Positions 7,749 to 54,184 of a stretch of DNA of 64,000 nucleotides are shown one piece after another. This stretch comes from Deltaproteobacteria bacterium RIFOXYD12_FULL_56_24. GTDB lineage: Bacteria > Desulfobacterota > Desulfobulbia > Desulfobulbales > Desulfurivibrionaceae. Numbering within the stretch: position 1 is the first letter of the stretch; each line of letters starts with the position of its first letter. The stretch covers positions 1 through 64,000 of the forward strand of contig MGTD01000007.1 in NCBI GenBank assembly GCA_001799285.1, read 5' to 3'. The position numbers and the translations under genes were made by a program. Under the pieces are notes generated by a model. The model was not told where the DNA came from and did no database searches. It saw nothing but the letters and a program-made list of their open reading frames with translations.

Positions 7749-7928
7749 GTAATCGTTCACCAAGGGCACTCAATTTCAGGTAAACCCGGAACTGTAAGCG
7801 TTCAGCAGTGCCGCAGATGCGCGTGTCAATCGTCGGCAGAAGTGTCCGACCAAGAGGCCTGTTCGCTATACATATGGTATGCGGACCAGGCCGATGACAA
7901 AGCAGATGTGGTGCTGCTGAACGCTTAC
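7749..7928 (+). mobile_element. MITE copy upstream of holB with extra module
   Basis: A 180-bp element beginning GTAATCGTTCACC and ending GCTGCTGAACGCTTAC. The flanks GTTTCATG (7741-7748) and ATTTCATG (7929-7936) are a 7/8 target duplication; the left copy contains the holB start codon. It is longer than the 154-bp norm because its stem carries an insert matching TGTCAATCGTCGGCAGAAGTG, a module also found near 13800 and 50895. Confidence 0.78.
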
Positions 7929-13769: not shown

Positions 13770-13918
13770 GTAAGCGATCAACAGTGCACCGCATGTTGTC
13801 GGCACTTCTGCCGACGATTGACAGCGGCGATCGAGCCGGCTCACGTACGTCAAGTACGCATCGCCGTCCCGCTTACCGCAACCTGCAGCACCCTGAGACC
13901 GCTTGTTTAGTGACTTAC
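13770..13918 (-). mobile_element. MITE copy with shortened module B
   Basis: Begins GTAAGCGATCAACAGTGCACC, has the conserved body GGCGATCGAGCCGGCTCACG with a CGTAC-GTCAA-GTACG hairpin, then CGCAACCTGCAGCACC, and ends GTGACTTAC, consistent with an internally deleted module B. The stem carries the GTCGGCACTTCTGCCGACGA module also present near 7826 and 50895. No target duplication is recognisable. Confidence 0.65.
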
Positions 13919-48740: not shown

Positions 48741-49194
48741 GATATTTCCTTGGCTGCAATGAAGGAAGCAGGGTGCGTTTCCCGGCGCTCTTCGTGGGGA
48801 TGAGGGGCGCCGGCTCTTGTAAGCCGCTTTATATACTGCAAATGGCGGGAAATGACAATGGCCGTTGCACGATAACGATACGAATCTGGGCGTTTTTGCG
48901 GGGAAACCGCCATTATTCGGCTTTGGCTGGTGTTCGCGCTGCCTGGTGAGTTCTCGGGGCGGCAGGCCTTAGGGAGTTCGTTGATTCCCCTTGACAGTGC
49001 CGGAGAATTTTTTGTATTATTTCGCGACGATCCATCCTGGGGCAGGTATTTTTTCAAGGGGCGCGATGCCGTTGCCAAAGCAGGTGATGGTCGGTGGCTG
49101 TTTCCCCGGAATCTCCCGACGGGCTTGTGCCCCTGTTCCCCTCCTGCCGACGACGGACCCAGAGAGCGCAGTGACTACCTTGCCAACTACCTCC
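48741..49194. other. Intergenic leader of the sugar operon
   Basis: Contains a promoter at 48991-49020 and a predicted leader of about 145-165 bases before the membrane glycosyltransferase start. No known riboswitch motif was recognised. Confidence 0.5.
48991..49020 (+). promoter_or_regulatory. Sigma-70 promoter for the sugar operon
   Basis: TTGACA (48991-48996), 18-base spacer, TATTAT (49015-49020). It makes starts upstream of about 49030 impossible for the next gene. Confidence 0.65.
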
Positions 49195-50823
49195 ATGCAG
49201 AAATGGTCTTTTCCCGCCGCGCTGTTGCTGCTCGTCGCCACCCTCGGCGGACTAGGTTTTTATATCTTCGGCTCGTACCAGGCTTTCTTCAACTCCGACG
49301 CCGCCATTGCTAATATCCTGGCGGAAGAGATCGTCCGCACCGGTTCGCTTTTTCCTAAAGACTGGTGGTATGTCAACGGCGATCTCTGGGTGTTCTACAA
49401 ACATCTTCTCCTGATCCCCTGGGTTATGGCCGGAGAAAACGGCTTTTTCGCCCACGGGGTTTCCGTGGCCCTGGCCACTGCGGTCACCATCCTGCTGCTG
49501 GCCGGGGTTCTCCGCTCACTGGGGCTTTCCGGCACGGCAAAGGTCATGGGTTGCGTGGTCATCGGCCTCGGCTATTCCCCCCTTTATTTGCGCGAGGTTT
49601 ACGGCGAGGCCGCCTACACCTGGTATTTTGCTTTTCTCCTCGCCTTTTTTCTGTTGCTTAACAAGGCCCGGTCGCCGGTGGTAAGCCGTTTTGTCAGATC
49701 GGCGCTGACCGGCATCTTTCTTGTCCTGCTCTTTCTGGTGACCATGGAGAACCCGGTGCGTTTCCTGGTTTACTATGTGGTGCCCTTTGTCCTGGCCCTG
49801 GCTGCCTTTTTGTATCTTGAGCAGGAGGCTCCGGCAGAGGCCGGAAAAAGCACCTTGCGCGAGCTGCTTTTCCCCTGGCTGCCCTTGGCCGTCGCCGGTT
49901 GCGGGGCGATCTTTCTGGGGGCGTTTTTCCACAAACTGGTCTTTACCGGGCTGCACAACGCCGCCGGCGCCAACCATGCCGTGCTCGTTGCCATGCAAAA
50001 GCTTCCGGAGCATGTGGCCCATTCCTTCCTGGGGCTGATGAATTTCATCGGCGCCGAATGGGGGGAGGAGGTGGAGATGGCCTCCCTGGCCGGGGTGACC
50101 GCCCTGCTGAAGCTGGGGCTTTATCCCCTGGTCCTGGTCCTGCCCGCCTGTTATGCCCGCAAAAACTTTCCTCTGCTGGACCGGGGGCAGAGATTTTTTC
50201 TGCTCCTTTCCTATCTCGGTTTTGCCCTGATCTTTTTCATCTATTCCATCAGCAGCCTGCACGACAACGCCTATGCCGCCCGCAACAACATCCGCTACAT
50301 CATCCCTTTTTTGATGATGGTTCTGCTCTGCCCGGTGCTGCTCTGGCGATTTTTCCCCAAGCCGGTCAAGGCGGCTTTGCTCCTGGCTCTGCTGATCGCC
50401 GCCCTCGGCTCCTGGCGGAACATCTCGCCTCCGGACTGGCGGGACAAGGCCGGGGAGAGGATGATGGTGGTCAACACCCTCAAGGGGCGTGGACTGAGCA
50501 ATGGCTATGCCCCATACTGGGAATCGCATGTTTACACGGTGTTCAGCAAGGGGAAGGTGCGCATCCGGCCCCTTGACATAGACTGCCGCGGGGTGGATCG
50601 CTGTCTGTGGCTGACCAGCGACAGCTGGCATGAACCGGGCTATACCACCGGCAGGGTTTTCGTGCTGGTGCCCAAGGAAAGGCTTGCCGACTGGGCCAAT
50701 GGGATGCGGAATTTCTCCCTTGCCCCACCGGTGGAAGAGTTTACCCTGGCCAATTACCAGGTGCTGGTCTTTGCCGAAAACCCGCTGCCCGGGCTCAAGG
50801 GAAGGAATGAAAACTGTGATTGA
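49195..50823 (+). CDS. Polytopic membrane glycosyltransferase-like protein
   Basis: About 542 residues, with ~10-12 predicted transmembrane helices and a soluble C-terminal part (~residues 430-540). The start AGSYQAFFNSDAAIANILAEE-like region after the first helix has the Asp-containing lumenal loop typical of GT-C (GT39-like) transferases that use polyprenyl-phosphate sugars. Start is ATG 49195 or GTG 49171 (GAGAG upstream); longer frames begin at or before the promoter. It leads a cluster with a GtrB-like transferase, WbqC, a sugar aminotransferase and a small transporter, and likely transfers the finished sugar to a surface glycan. Confidence 0.65.
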   Translation: MQKWSFPAALLLLVATLGGLGFYIFGSYQAFFNSDAAIANILAEEIVRTGSLFPKDWWYVNGDLWVFYKHLLLIPWVMAGENGFFAHGVSVALATAVTILLLAGVLRSLGLSGTAKVMGCVVIGLGYSPLYLREVYGEAAYTWYFAFLLAFFLLLNKARSPVVSRFVRSALTGIFLVLLFLVTMENPVRFLVYYVVPFVLALAAFLYLEQEAPAEAGKSTLRELLFPWLPLAVAGCGAIFLGAFFHKLVFTGLHNAAGANHAVLVAMQKLPEHVAHSFLGLMNFIGAEWGEEVEMASLAGVTALLKLGLYPLVLVLPACYARKNFPLLDRGQRFFLLLSYLGFALIFFIYSISSLHDNAYAARNNIRYIIPFLMMVLLCPVLLWRFFPKPVKAALLLALLIAALGSWRNISPPDWRDKAGERMMVVNTLKGRGLSNGYAPYWESHVYTVFSKGKVRIRPLDIDCRGVDRCLWLTSDSWHEPGYTTGRVFVLVPKERLADWANGMRNFSLAPPVEEFTLANYQVLVFAENPLPGLKGRNENCD

Positions 50824-50861
50824 GGTTTTGCTGCCTTCGGGGTGGGTGTCAATAGGGAGCC

Positions 50862-51020
50862 GTTCTGGTCCGGGGGATGCTTTTCCCTCATGGTCGGCAC
50901 TTCTGCCGACGATTGACACTCGGGCGGACATCCTGTCCGCCTCCGAGGCGTCTGCTGCCCGGTCCGTCCATGGCCGGGCGACGCAGCCGATACCGGGAAA
51001 AGCATCCCCCGGACCAGAAC
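50862..51020. mobile_element. Element with perfect 26-bp terminal inverted repeats
   Basis: Arms 50862-50887 and 50995-51020 are exact reverse complements (GGTCCGGGGGATGCTTTTCC and its complement at the core). The 107-base interior includes the GTCGGCACTTCTGCCGACGA module and two further hairpins (GGCGGACATCCTGTCCGCC; around CCGGGCGACGCAG). Its right arm end was later hit by the MITE, whose target duplication falls in it. No duplication of its own is seen. Confidence 0.7.
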
Positions 51021-51022
51021 TT

Positions 51023-51176
51023 GTAACCGATCACGGGGCAACCACACAAAGGTCAAATAACCACGGAACAAGCGGTCACAGGGTGCCGCAGGTTGCGGCA
51101 AGCGGGACGGCGATGCGTACTTTTGTCCGTGAGCCGGACCGATCGCCGCAAGATGTGGTGCCATGTGATCGCTTAC
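51023..51176 (+). mobile_element. Complete 154-bp MITE
   Basis: GTAACCGATCACGGGGCAAC ... GCCATGTGATCGCTTAC, flanked by CAGAACTT (51015-51022) and CAGAACTC (51177-51184), 7/8 matching. It is almost identical to the copies in lptA (reverse) and at 54020. Confidence 0.88.
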
Positions 51177-51240
51177 CAGAACTCACTTTGCAGGCTTCGA
51201 TATTGTCTGAAATATTGAGACTGTTTCTAAGGAGAATCTC

Positions 51241-52200
51241 GTGTCCACTCCAGTAAAAATAAGCGTGGTCTCTCCGGTTTACGGCTGCAGAGAGTGTCTG
51301 GGAGAACTATGTAAAAGGCTGGCGGCAACGATTGCGCCTATCTGCGACGATTTTGAGATCATTCTGGTTAACGACGCTTGCCCCCAGGGCTCCTGGGAGA
51401 CGATCCAGGCCATGGCCCGTCAGGATCACCAAATCAAGGGGATCAATCTCTCCCGCAATTTCGGCCAGCATTACGCGATCACCGCCGGGCTCGACCATGC
51501 CAGCGGCGACTGGGTGGTGGTGATGGACTGCGACCTGCAGGACAAGCCGGAGGAGATCGCCAAGCTCTATGCCAAGGCGAGGGAAGGCTACGACATTGTT
51601 TTCGGGCAACGGGTGGAGCGGCAGGACAGCTTTTTCAAGAAGCTCTCCTCCCGGATGTTTTACTGGGTTTTGGAGTATTTCACCGATACCGAGCATGACA
51701 AGACCATCGCCAATTTCGGCATCTTTTCCCGGCAGGTGATTGCAACCGTCAACCGCTATCGCGAGCAGAACCGCTCCTTTCCGCTCTTCGTCAAGATCGC
51801 CGGCTTCAAAAGAACCCAGGTTCCGGTGGCGCACGATGACCGGTTGTACGGCAGGTCTTCCTATAACTTCAGCAAACTGATCAATCTGGCCATCGACTCC
51901 ATCGTGGCCCACTCCAACAAGCCGCTGCGGCTTTTCATCCAGTTCGGCTTCTTTATCGCCCTGGGCAGCATGCTCTACGCCTTCTGGCTGGTGTTGAGCT
52001 ATTTTCTCTACGGCGACATCGCCGAGGGCTGGACCAGCCTGATGGTCTCGATGTTTTTCATGTTCGGCCTGCTCTTCGGCATCCTGGGGATTCTGGGCCT
52101 CTATATCGGCAAGATCTTCGATGAGGTCAAGGGGCGGCCGCTCTACATCATTGCGGAAGCGGTCAATATTGACGCCGTTTCACAAGCGCCGCAGCCATGA
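51241..52200 (+). CDS. GtrB-like polyprenyl-phosphate glycosyltransferase
   Basis: A 319-residue family 2 glycosyltransferase (DPM1/GtrB type). ISVVSPVYGCRECLGEL and the nucleotide-sugar DxD-like VVMDCDLQDKPEEI (~residue 96) define the GT-A domain; two C-terminal transmembrane helices (~235-260, ~275-300) anchor it. It should load a sugar from a nucleotide donor onto undecaprenyl phosphate at the cytoplasmic face. GTG start with AAGGAG. It overlaps wbqC by 4 bases. Confidence 0.88.
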   Translation: MSTPVKISVVSPVYGCRECLGELCKRLAATIAPICDDFEIILVNDACPQGSWETIQAMARQDHQIKGINLSRNFGQHYAITAGLDHASGDWVVVMDCDLQDKPEEIAKLYAKAREGYDIVFGQRVERQDSFFKKLSSRMFYWVLEYFTDTEHDKTIANFGIFSRQVIATVNRYREQNRSFPLFVKIAGFKRTQVPVAHDDRLYGRSSYNFSKLINLAIDSIVAHSNKPLRLFIQFGFFIALGSMLYAFWLVLSYFLYGDIAEGWTSLMVSMFFMFGLLFGILGILGLYIGKIFDEVKGRPLYIIAEAVNIDAVSQAPQP

Positions 52201-52889
52201 AGAAAATCGCCATTCTTCAGTCCAACTATATCCCCTGGAAGGGGTATTTCGACCTCATCGGCAGCGTCGACGAGTTCGTGCTCTACGACGACATGCAGTA
52301 CACCAAGAACGACTGGCGCAACCGCAATCTGATCAAGACCCCGAATGGCCCGGCCTGGCTCACCATCCCGGTAAGGCAGGAATCGCTTGCCCAGACCATC
52401 AGGGAAACCAGAATCGCCAACCCCCTTTGGCACAAGCAGCACTGGAAGACCATCTCGCAGAACTATGCCAAGGCCGCGTATTTCAAGGAGTATAAGGATT
52501 TCTTTGAGGAGCTCTACCGCACGGCCACCGAGGAATATTTAAGCGAGATCAACCGCAAATTCCTGCTGGCCATCAACGGGCTGCTGGGTATCACCACTAC
52601 CATCCGCTGCTCCAGCGAATTCACCCTGGCGCCGGGCAAAAGTGAACGTCTGTTGGCCTTATGCCAGGAGCTGGGCGCGACCACCTACCTGAGCGGGCCC
52701 GCGGCCGGCGATTATCTCGACGTGGCGCTTTTTACGGCGGCGGGGATAGAGGTCGAATGGATGGATTACCGCGGCTATCCCGAATATACCCAGCTTTTCC
52801 CGCCCTTTGCGCACGGGGTGAGCATTGTGGATCTGCTGTTTAACGAGGGCGGTAATGCCCCGAAATTCATGAAAGGCGCGCACCGATGA
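52197..52889 (+). CDS. WbqC-like family protein
   Basis: A 230-residue WbqC-family protein: IAILQSNYIPWKGYFDLI (~residue 4), FVLYDDMQYTKNDWRNRN, then PEYTQLFPPFAHGVSIVDLL near the end. These proteins occur in O-antigen and amino-sugar clusters; their biochemical role is not settled in what I know. It sits between the glycosyltransferase and the aminotransferase with 4-base overlaps on both sides, so all three are translated together. Confidence 0.88.
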   Translation: MKKIAILQSNYIPWKGYFDLIGSVDEFVLYDDMQYTKNDWRNRNLIKTPNGPAWLTIPVRQESLAQTIRETRIANPLWHKQHWKTISQNYAKAAYFKEYKDFFEELYRTATEEYLSEINRKFLLAINGLLGITTTIRCSSEFTLAPGKSERLLALCQELGATTYLSGPAAGDYLDVALFTAAGIEVEWMDYRGYPEYTQLFPPFAHGVSIVDLLFNEGGNAPKFMKGAHR

Positions 52890-54184
52890 TACACTTCAAC
52901 AAGCCCCCCCACACCGGCAACGAAGAGCAGTACGTTCTTGAAGCGATGAAGAGCCCGCAGATCTCCGGGGACGGAGCGTTCGGCAAGCGCTGCCAGCGCT
53001 GGTTTGAAGAGCAGCTCGTCTGCCGCAAGGCCCTGCTCACTCCCTCCTGCACCCATGCCCTGGAGATGGCCGCGATCCTCATCGGCATCGAGCCCGGCGA
53101 TGAGGTGATCATGCCCAGCTATACCTTTGTCAGCACCGCTAACGCCTTTGCCCTGCGCGGAGCCCGCATCGTCTTCGTGGACATCCGCCCGGACACGATG
53201 AACATCGACGAGACCCGGATCGAGGCGGCGATCACCCCGCAGACCAAGGCCATCGTCCCGGTGCATTATGCCGGAGTGGGCTGTGAGATGGACGAGATCA
53301 TGACCCTGGCCGAGAAATACTCCCTTTTTGTCATCGAGGACGCGGCCCAGGGCATGATGAGCCGCTACAAGGGCCGACCGCTGGGGACCATCGGCCATCT
53401 CGGCACCTACAGCTTCCATGAAACCAAGAATTACACCAGCGGCGGCGAGGGCGGCCTGCTGCTCATCAACGATGGCCGCTTTACCGAGAGGGCTGAGATC
53501 ATCCGCGAAAAGGGGACCAACCGCAGCCAGTTCTTCCGCGGCATGGTGGACAAGTACAGCTGGGTGGACATCGGCAGCAGCTATCTGCCCTCCGAGCTGC
53601 AAGCGGCCTACCTCTGGGGGCAGCTGGAAATGGCCGAGGCCATCAACGGTGACCGGCTCGCCAGCTGGCTGGCCTACCGCGACAAGCTTGGCCCCCTGGC
53701 CGCCGCAGGGGTGATCGAGCTGCCGGTGGTCCCGGAAACCTGTCTCCACAACGCGCACATGTTTTATCTCAAGGTCAAGGATCTGAAGGAGCGCACCGCG
53801 CTTCTGGCGCAATGCCGACAGGACGAGATCGGGGCGGTGTTTCACTATGTGCCGCTGCACAGCGCGCCGGCCGGGCTGAAATATGGGCGCTTTTCCGGCC
53901 GGGATATCTACACCACCAGCCAGAGCGAACGGCTCATCCGGCTGCCCCTCTATTATGGCATGACAGAGGCGGAGATTGACACGGTCTGCGAAAAGATTAC
54001 GGAATGGAGCGGGGGAAACGTAACCGCTCACGGGGCAAACCCACAAAGGTCAAGTAACCACGAAACAAGCGGTCACAGGGTGCCGCAGGTTGCGGTAAGC
54101 GGGGCGGCGATGCGTACTTTTGTACGTGAGCCGGACCGATCGCCGCAAGATGTGGTGCCCTGTGATCGCTTACGGGAAAACTGA
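52886..54184 (+). CDS. wecE: DegT/WecE-type sugar aminotransferase with MITE tail
   Basis: A 432-residue frame whose first ~378 residues are a PLP sugar aminotransferase (WecE/RffA-like). It opens HFNKPPHTGNEEQYVLEAM, and the PLP region is FVIEDAAQGMMSRYKGRPLG (~residue 150) with catalytic Lys in FHETKNYTSGGEGG (~180). It would convert dTDP-4-keto-6-deoxyglucose to a 4-amino sugar. The final ~54 codons come from an in-frame MITE; without it the gene would end EWSGGN with TGATG overlapping the next start. The last residues are unrelated to any aminotransferase. Confidence 0.85.
   Translation: MIHFNKPPHTGNEEQYVLEAMKSPQISGDGAFGKRCQRWFEEQLVCRKALLTPSCTHALEMAAILIGIEPGDEVIMPSYTFVSTANAFALRGARIVFVDIRPDTMNIDETRIEAAITPQTKAIVPVHYAGVGCEMDEIMTLAEKYSLFVIEDAAQGMMSRYKGRPLGTIGHLGTYSFHETKNYTSGGEGGLLLINDGRFTERAEIIREKGTNRSQFFRGMVDKYSWVDIGSSYLPSELQAAYLWGQLEMAEAINGDRLASWLAYRDKLGPLAAAGVIELPVVPETCLHNAHMFYLKVKDLKERTALLAQCRQDEIGAVFHYVPLHSAPAGLKYGRFSGRDIYTTSQSERLIRLPLYYGMTEAEIDTVCEKITEWSGGNVTAHGANPQRSSNHETSGHRVPQVAVSGAAMRTFVREPDRSPQDVVPCDRLREN
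54020..54173 (+). mobile_element. Complete 154-bp MITE at 3' end of wecE-like gene
   Basis: GTAACCGCTCACGGGGCAAAC ... GCCCTGTGATCGCTTAC, flanked by GGGGAAAC (54012-54019) and GGGAAAAC (54174-54181), 7/8. It is in frame with the aminotransferase and adds the peptide containing SGHRVPQVAVSG and REPDRSPQDVVPC; 154 + 8 = 162 bases. Removal restores the TGATG coupling to the following gene. Confidence 0.88.

Follow-up and report, generated by a model that had tools for sequence, protein, structure and literature searches.

A degenerate, MITE-split element of a Desulfobulbales genome belongs to a mobile family whose covarying core may scatter CsrA-binding sites

Within the window, by which we mean the whole 64,000-nt stretch of contig MGTD01000007.1 of Deltaproteobacteria bacterium RIFOXYD12_FULL_56_24 analyzed here, two arms of 26 nt (50862-50887 and 50995-51020) raise the question of what kind of element they enclose. 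An earlier note made from the letters alone had described the 159-bp unit 50862-51020 as an element with exact terminal inverted repeats and several internal hairpins, itself hit by a MITE, and had left its mobility undecided. The arms are indeed 100% complementary. With up to three mismatches allowed, the 26-nt arm has no place in the window beyond these two, and 2 matches occur in 0/100 shuffles. The region 50845-51035 folds well below shuffled energy on both strands (z of -9.4 and -9.1, 0/200 shuffles).

The relatives of this unit in its own genome place the ends of the element elsewhere. A search of the window genome with 50845-51030 yields 44 matches, including 13 core-related loci (L001-L013), while the remaining matches consist of a short hairpin module alone (query ~42-78) or of the arms matching each other. 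When the 13 loci are aligned, the best-kept copies begin with CCTGATTAGCATCCC and end with TTACTTGAAAGTGCTAATCAGG, or nearly so. The idea that the 26-bp arms are terminal repeats does not survive this comparison, as the ends and target duplications of better-preserved copies lie ~30-50 bp further out. Because arm sequences vary between copies yet stay complementary, we regard the arms as a folded stem rather than as transposase-binding ends. The 159-bp unit is thus real but merely the inner part of a longer element, with homologous outer sequence on both sides. By alignment of the 13 genomic copies and by position, the degenerate outer segments of this host MITE (family A) extend over approximately 50829-50861 on the left side, where intact family A copies read about GCCGCCTGCGGCGGCGGTTTGTCGGCAAGTAACC, and approximately 51184-51221 on the right. 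Judged from these alignments, the window element is a degenerate larger MITE (~50829-51221) split by a second one, MITE C, and the 26-bp inverted repeat is P1, the closing stem of a putative minus-strand structured core, and no transposon end.

MITE C (51023-51176, GTAACC...GCTTAC) is delimited by its genome matches and by reading of the sequence, and it has at least 40 near-full-length matches in the window genome, itself included. Its ends, GTAA...TTAC, are of what we take to be the IS66 type. As the earlier note had observed, its target duplication lies in the right arm of the element: the first copy, CAGAACTT (51015-51022), and the second, CAGAACTC (51177-51184), are identical at 7/8 positions. 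As the final six bases of the 26-bp arm are part of the first copy, MITE C must have inserted second, in agreement with the relative age already proposed. Another copy of MITE C (window 54020-54173) supplies the 3′ end of ORF 52886-54184, with the tail ...RSSNHETSGHRVPQVAVSGAAMRTFVREPDRSPQDVVPCDRLREN, and the predicted aminotransferase-like protein (named by eye) thus terminates in MITE-coded residues. A MITE related to MITE C (L094:1-78) has at least ~40 matches in each of the Desulfurivibrio genomes G019, G024 and G025; it probably breaks assemblies, as it is often found at contig ends in G025.

The family displays the features by which MITEs are recognized, being short and multi-copy with inverted ends and target duplications, whereas intact ends and a duplication are lacking at the window copy. 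No 8-mer is common to 50801-50845 and 51206-51250 with up to one mismatch, and the window copy itself therefore offers no target duplication of the host MITE; by reading, an 8-bp duplication, AAACATTA, is present at another copy of the same genome (L004). At the orthologous place in two genomes of the same genus (G009 and G013), the flanking genes lie ~30 and ~10 bases apart and the element is absent. The question of whether the unit is mobile can thus be answered: the unit represents a mobile element with further copies in the same genome, and the site it occupies is empty in two same-genus genomes.

For counts of core copies across genomes, we used a covariance model, R1, derived from the very lineages that supply most of the counts. 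R1 finds at least 13 core copies in the window genome, the search for further copies thus succeeding where a single copy would have spoken against a mobile element, and at least 38 and 28 in the Desulfurivibrio genomes G019 and G024, respectively. At least 59 are found in G048, which belongs to another family (f13), and 1-6 in each of seven other genomes, while 47 of the 58 genomes searched have none; these counts cover related sequences rather than independent events. Within the genus of the window genome, 2/16 other members have R1 matches (G009 and G013), at sites different from that of the window copy. Across the phylum, matches occur in at least 12/395 genomes, from families f1, f12, f23, f31, f48 and f69, of which the f69 match (L158) may be due to chance, as the conserved hp1 letters (see below) are missing. 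A pattern search for hp1 returned 21 named stretches, which come from MAGs of Desulfobulbaceae and of other deltaproteobacteria, from Desulfurivibrio, and from two contigs of Nitrospirae bacterium HyVt-545, the last confirmed by R1. The first 19 bases of the arm gave 0 matches in viral contigs. In sum, compensatory change has kept the core in copies from seven genomes of two families, with model matches in further Desulfobacterota families and in one Nitrospirae MAG.

The chassis that carry the core are MITEs with no fewer than three different kinds of end. Those of G048 have the ends GTAACTATCCAGC, and both ends are found in 13 copies; 8-bp duplications are exact at 6/13 of these and within one mismatch at 7/13, compared to 2/156 among control mismatched pairings. 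The same genome contains one autonomous IS66-family element in which the first 13 bp of both ends are the same as in the chassis, with the duplication GAATATTT. In these ends, the G048 chassis resembles IS66-family MITEs, from which the element differs by its cargo of a conserved, putative RNA. In the window genome, we find no match to the IS66 transposase (PF03050), and the element copies there have other ends (CCTGATTAGC). In Desulfurivibrio, some copies have the ends GGCAACGTCAAAGTC...GACTTTGACG, and by reading, 8-10 bp direct repeats stand beside 3/4 copies for which both ends are found.

Comparison of G019 with G024 (38 and 26 copies compared) reveals seven pairs with homologous flanks on both sides, ~81-93% identical. 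Four of these pairs (L198/L248, L215/L244, L223/L246 and L232/L249) represent shared insertions, as their immediate surroundings align too; in L212/L236 and L217/L247, the flanks are homologous but the immediate surroundings do not align, and the seventh pair, L199/L237, is ambiguous in this respect. Two G024 copies correspond to empty sites in G019, and one of them, L089, lies in frame inside a protein gene without interrupting its reading frame. Taken together, the differing insertion sites, the empty sites and the target duplications make the mobility of the family nearly certain. Two other accounts of how the core came to its sites were dropped. L094 had suggested that the P1 arm is an inverted copy of target DNA; this locus is an old insertion common to three genomes, and the arms of L089 resemble those of its family, which also argues against such copying. 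L084 had suggested insertion of the core into a pre-existing terminator; the related genome G021 has another sequence at that place, so that there is no clean empty site. That sequence (G021:C37:167075-167346, L186) is ~270 nt of different sequence between the same two genes.

To describe the core, we parsed 46 copies from eight genomes by hand rules, with three rows repaired by hand, and assembled an alignment, A1, of 29 of the 33 short-form copies with distinct hairpins, drawn from seven genomes and set in minus-strand orientation. In A1, 94.1% of paired cells hold a pair, compared to 71.3% in shuffled alignments and 37.8-46.4% when partners are slid; the covariation score is 0.614 versus 0.175 when shuffled, and 0/500 shuffles reach any of the five measures. 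RNAalifold finds compensatory change on both sides for 33/48 of its predicted pairs, and its stems are the same as those of A1, differences being limited to a few pairs of the junction and the hp1 foot. That the core is a three-way junction of P1, hp2 and hp1, sometimes with hp0, is nearly certain as far as structure is concerned. The earlier note had recorded internal hairpins and overlooked the conservation and covariation of hp1 and hp2 as well as their CsrA-like loops.

At the window copy, all parts of the core lie on the minus strand. The 5′ arm of P1 is 50995-51020 and the 3′ arm, its perfect complement, is 50862-50887, both identified by comparison of the inverted repeat and by the covariation of the stem. 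The second hairpin, hp2 (50949-50989), placed by its fold, the copy sequences and position, covaries and reads CCAUGGACGG on the RNA strand with a hexaloop AUGGAC, where 50965-50973 covers the loop together with some of the pairs that close it. The most widely conserved hairpin is hp1 (50919-50947, CTCGGAGGC...GCCGAG), which was located by alignments A1 and A3, by distant copies and by position, and which has the loop CAGGAUG on the RNA strand at 50929-50935. An optional third hairpin, hp0 (50893-50910, GTCGGCAGAAGTGCCGAC), known from genome matches and alignment, occurs in the long form only and is common to MITE family B.

Pairs of orthologous copies illustrate how these parts change. In L198/L248, P1 differs at many positions on both sides with pairing retained. 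L223 has an hp0-type hairpin and its ortholog L246 does not, and we therefore regard hp0 as an optional insert of the junction. The long-form copies L066, L094 and L223 have junction inserts of differing length at the same position, each closing with a TCGGCAG..TGCCGA hairpin, as if the core junction were an insertion hot spot. MITE family B (L014-L020; window 7820-7857 and 13798-13823), with ends TGTAAC..TTCAGCAGTGCCGCA, has only the hp0 module GTGTCAATCGTCGGCAGCAGTGCCGAC in common with the element, and the hp0 module alone matches many same-genus genomes that lack the core. In four Desulfurivibrio copies, L248, L230 and L231 among them, the foot of hp1 is replaced by CC(C)CATA(A)GATGAT.., and the CAGGATG loop is kept in L230 and lost in the other three. 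We also considered that the RNA strand might encode a short conserved peptide and ruled this out, as by reading the frame shifts between subfamilies, although one copy (L089) is in frame inside a gene.

Which strand folds can be judged from the kind of imperfect pairs that each stem tolerates. Among 107 distinct rows of 108 matches, with the RNA strand taken as the opposite of the window + strand, G.U cells outnumber A.C cells in P1 (82 versus 12) and in hp2 (39 versus 13), whereas hp1 has the reverse (11 versus 22), with 13 of its 22 A.C cells coming from G048 rows. When distinct events are counted by genome, the ratio is 51:12 in P1 and 29:13 in hp2; by genus, it is 37:12 in P1 (p 0.0005), 22:13 in hp2 (p 0.18) and 6:10 in hp1. 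In the 21 distant rows, for which the alignment is forced, the bias is absent (32 G.U versus 35 A.C). As G.U exceeds A.C in P1 and the copying of one arm from the other would by itself predict no bias, the minus strand appears to fold as a single strand. RNA is the more likely identity of this strand compared to DNA, and we consider a minus-strand RNA likely.

The loops of the two conserved hairpins suggest a partner for such an RNA. According to the available text of Duss et al. (PMC4005645), the high-affinity site of CsrA/RsmE is a hexaloop ANGGAX set directly on a stem, with weaker binding when N is lacking, and a review, as far as its text is available (PMC7652899), gives the CsrB repeat as CAGGA(U/A/C)G, the SELEX consensus as RUACARGGAUGU and the distance over which one CsrA dimer bridges two sites as 10-63 nt. 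In the element, the hexaloop ANGGAX recurs as loop 2, and most loop 1 sequences are the CsrB repeat CAGGA(U/C)G. In 84/107 rows the hp2 loop is contained in 8-mers that are nearly invariant at six positions (C in 83/84, A in 84, G in 84, G in 84, the second A in 83 and the last G in 84), with free positions at N (T 70, G 8, A 3, C 3) and X (C 70, T 10, G 2, A 2). The hp1 loop is CAGGATG in 53, CAGGACG in 12 and CATGGATG in 11 of the 107 rows.

When the strict motif CA(N)GGAXG is scored on each side of an hp1 anchor, which is possible in 100/107 rows with the 7 rows lacking the anchor set aside, both hairpins have it in 84/100, hp1 only in 4, hp2 only in 4 and neither in 8, all of the last with a shortened hp2. 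The two loop motifs are thus retained jointly (Fisher 1e-6, with relatedness ignored). An earlier and looser count of GGA anywhere in the aligned loop had given both in 93, neither in 9 and one in 5 of 107 rows; we made the strict recount because the looser one had taken loops from misaligned inserts, at least two of them spurious, and it left our estimates for structure, mobility, RNA, CsrA binding and role unchanged. The motif occurs at least twice in 91/108 copies, compared to 10/2160 mononucleotide shuffles, and no copy has two on the reverse strand; the distance from first to last motif is 36-39 nt in 84 of these 91 copies. A third motif, nearly always CAGGAGG, is present in 54/108 copies. 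Among the distant copies, 17/21 have at least one motif and 4 have none, and by reading, hp2 in distant families is often without a GGA loop. The orthologous copies L232/L249/L094, kept in three genomes, have P1 and lack both motif loops; in some copies P1 may thus be of importance in the absence of CsrA loops, an argument against one function for all.

A CsrA is encoded in 25 of the 27 family genomes, the two without being 77% and 79% complete. The window genome's own CsrA retains L4 and R44, which are named as RNA-binding residues in the available text of the review (PMC7652899). That the core binds CsrA is probable, judged by the letters, size and spacing of the loops, their joint retention and the presence of CsrA in the host. 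Core copies lie ~4-6 kb from csrA in three genomes, namely L198 in G019 (csrA at 2728408), L248 in G024 (C33, 32139) and L084 in G023 (C8, 111988); as G019 and G024 share one insertion, this amounts to two events and may be due to chance.

When compared to described RNA families, the element has similarities without a formal assignment. At gathering thresholds, no Rfam family matches the element in 8 loci, the three matches found there being the SRP RNA and two tRNAs. Under lax settings, the best match of the window copy is TwoAYGGAY (RF01731), at full length on the minus strand with 26.4 bits and E 0.027 against a gathering score of 43; this family matches none of 17 other copy loci at E ≤ 1, nor L202 at E ≤ 5. 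The match may be due to chance, as the unrelated RF02901 reached a similar E-value on L060 (E 0.014, 25.2 of 97 bits). TwoAYGGAY resembles the element in its two AYGGAY-type loops and its proposed CsrA role; in the accessible part of the 2014 paper that proposes it as a CsrA binder (PMC4333381), mobility is not reported. The same part of that paper states that the CsrB/RsmZ decoy RNA class had been identified only in Gammaproteobacteria. CsrB/CsrC and RsmX/Y/Z (RF00018, RF00195 and relatives) are similar to the element in having GGA in loops, the CAGGA(U/C)G and ANGGAX types, and site pairs at dimer spacing. Unlike CsrB/RsmZ, the element is mobile and multi-copy, consists of one three-way junction with two loop sites, and is found in Desulfobacterota rather than Gammaproteobacteria; in contrast to those free sRNAs, the window copy has no promoter or terminator pattern of its own.

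Among mobile elements, QMITE1/QMITE2 of Coxiella burnetii are likewise short, multi-copy MITEs with strong folds, some of which are transcribed as sRNAs; in the text of that paper that was available (PMC5896051), CsrA has 0 occurrences, and neither compensatory conservation nor protein-binding loops are described. The Rickettsia palindromic elements (RPE) are likewise ~150-bp palindromes that insert in frame in genes, according to the available text of a 2024 review of prokaryotic MITEs (PMC10969869), and may be compared with L089. By description, the element differs from them in lying mostly outside called genes (13/77 inside) and in having RNA loops and covariation. CsrA has 0 occurrences in the same review, and in a literature that was largely open-access and partly available as excerpts, we found no MITE or transposon carrying CsrA sites; our searches also found nothing joining Desulfurivibrio and CsrA and met no described CsrA decoy RNA for Desulfobacterota. 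For a mobile element that acts on the Csr network, the closest precedent is RsmQ, which the available text (PMC9928087) describes as a CsrA-family regulator borne by a plasmid and acting on the host Csr/Rsm network. The RsmQ plasmid carries a protein, whereas the element described here, if our reading holds, would carry an RNA target.

The explanation that we favor, with somewhat better than even confidence, is that of a MITE-borne CsrA-binding RNA, of which the window locus would be a degenerate, MITE-split copy within a mobile family of structured-RNA cassettes. The alternatives differ in whether an RNA is involved at all. In an ordinary MITE, the fold would be a by-product of palindromic DNA, with template switching or cruciform repair keeping the arms complementary and no RNA function. 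Highly folded MITEs are common, as the available text of the review notes (PMC10969869), the arms of L198/L248 differ more than their alignable flanks, and there is no G.U bias in the 21 distant copies, all of which suit this account. We nevertheless judge it unlikely, as arm copying predicts equal G.T and A.C leftovers and P1 has 82 versus 12 (37 versus 12 by genus), as P1 lies inside the transposon ends, and as the covariation of hp2 and the fixed loop letters with free N and X would be left unexplained. Less likely again is that the minus strand folds as single-stranded DNA, a substrate of an attC-like or Y1/REP-like recombinase. A strand bias would arise for single-stranded DNA too, G.T being the milder DNA mismatch, and varying stems with a constant structure resemble integron attC sites, in which stems vary and structure stays. 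However, G048 copies have 8-bp duplications and IS66-type ends that lie outside P1, which speaks for a double-strand DDE transposase, and the loop letters match a protein-RNA site.

It is also improbable, to about the same degree as the ordinary MITE, that the core is a structured RNA with a role unrelated to CsrA, for example as a transcript stabilizer or terminator (a bidirectional terminator or a barrier to RNase) or with GGA loops for another protein. Some kept copies have no GGA loops, and copies are often close to gene ends, with the stem of L084 filling the gap between two apparently convergent genes. On the other side, the consensus of the loops is identical to the published CsrA site in its letters, in loop size and in spacing, and the two loops tend to share the same fate, retained or lost. 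The gene context of 77 copies from G000, G019 and G024, for which gene calls are crude, shows a mildly biased orientation to neighboring genes: the RNA and the gene upstream of it share a strand in 41 copies and lie on opposite strands in 22, while 13 copies fall within called ORFs and an upstream call is lacking for 1. The copy in the window runs antisense to both of its flanking genes (ORFs 48991-50823 and 51241-52200), and a scan of this copy alone gave 0 promoter-like and 0 terminator-like sites within 50700-51350. Being antisense to both neighbors and having no recognizable promoter, it may be silent.

Under the CsrA-binding reading, the hp2 hexaloop ANGGAX and the hp1 loop CAGGA(U/C)G would form the site pair for one CsrA dimer, and each copy transcribed in the right orientation, within an mRNA or alone, would tether CsrA. 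The least certain steps are those that follow: insertions could put a CsrA site into host transcripts and thereby exert local control of translation or stability, and the copies summed could serve as a dispersed decoy of the CsrB kind. We put forward these roles, as decoy or as spreader of local CsrA control, tentatively. More tentative still, by a shade, is the wider picture in which MITEs carrying a docking RNA for the CsrA dimer would, by transposition, rewire the Csr network copy by copy and at the same time constitute a dispersed, fast-evolving CsrB-like sponge.

If the CsrA reading is true, a CsrA-type RNA would exist in Desulfobacterota, outside Gammaproteobacteria, as a structured RNA family that Rfam does not recognize at its thresholds in the loci scanned. 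With at least 38 copies in G019, at least 28 in G024 and seven flank-homologous pairs between them, Desulfurivibrio would allow a direct test of mobile repeats wiring post-transcriptional networks, and D. alkaliphilus is a culturable host. The finding would then describe a transposon that spreads the binding site of a global regulator, an element that may scatter CsrA-binding sites through genomes.
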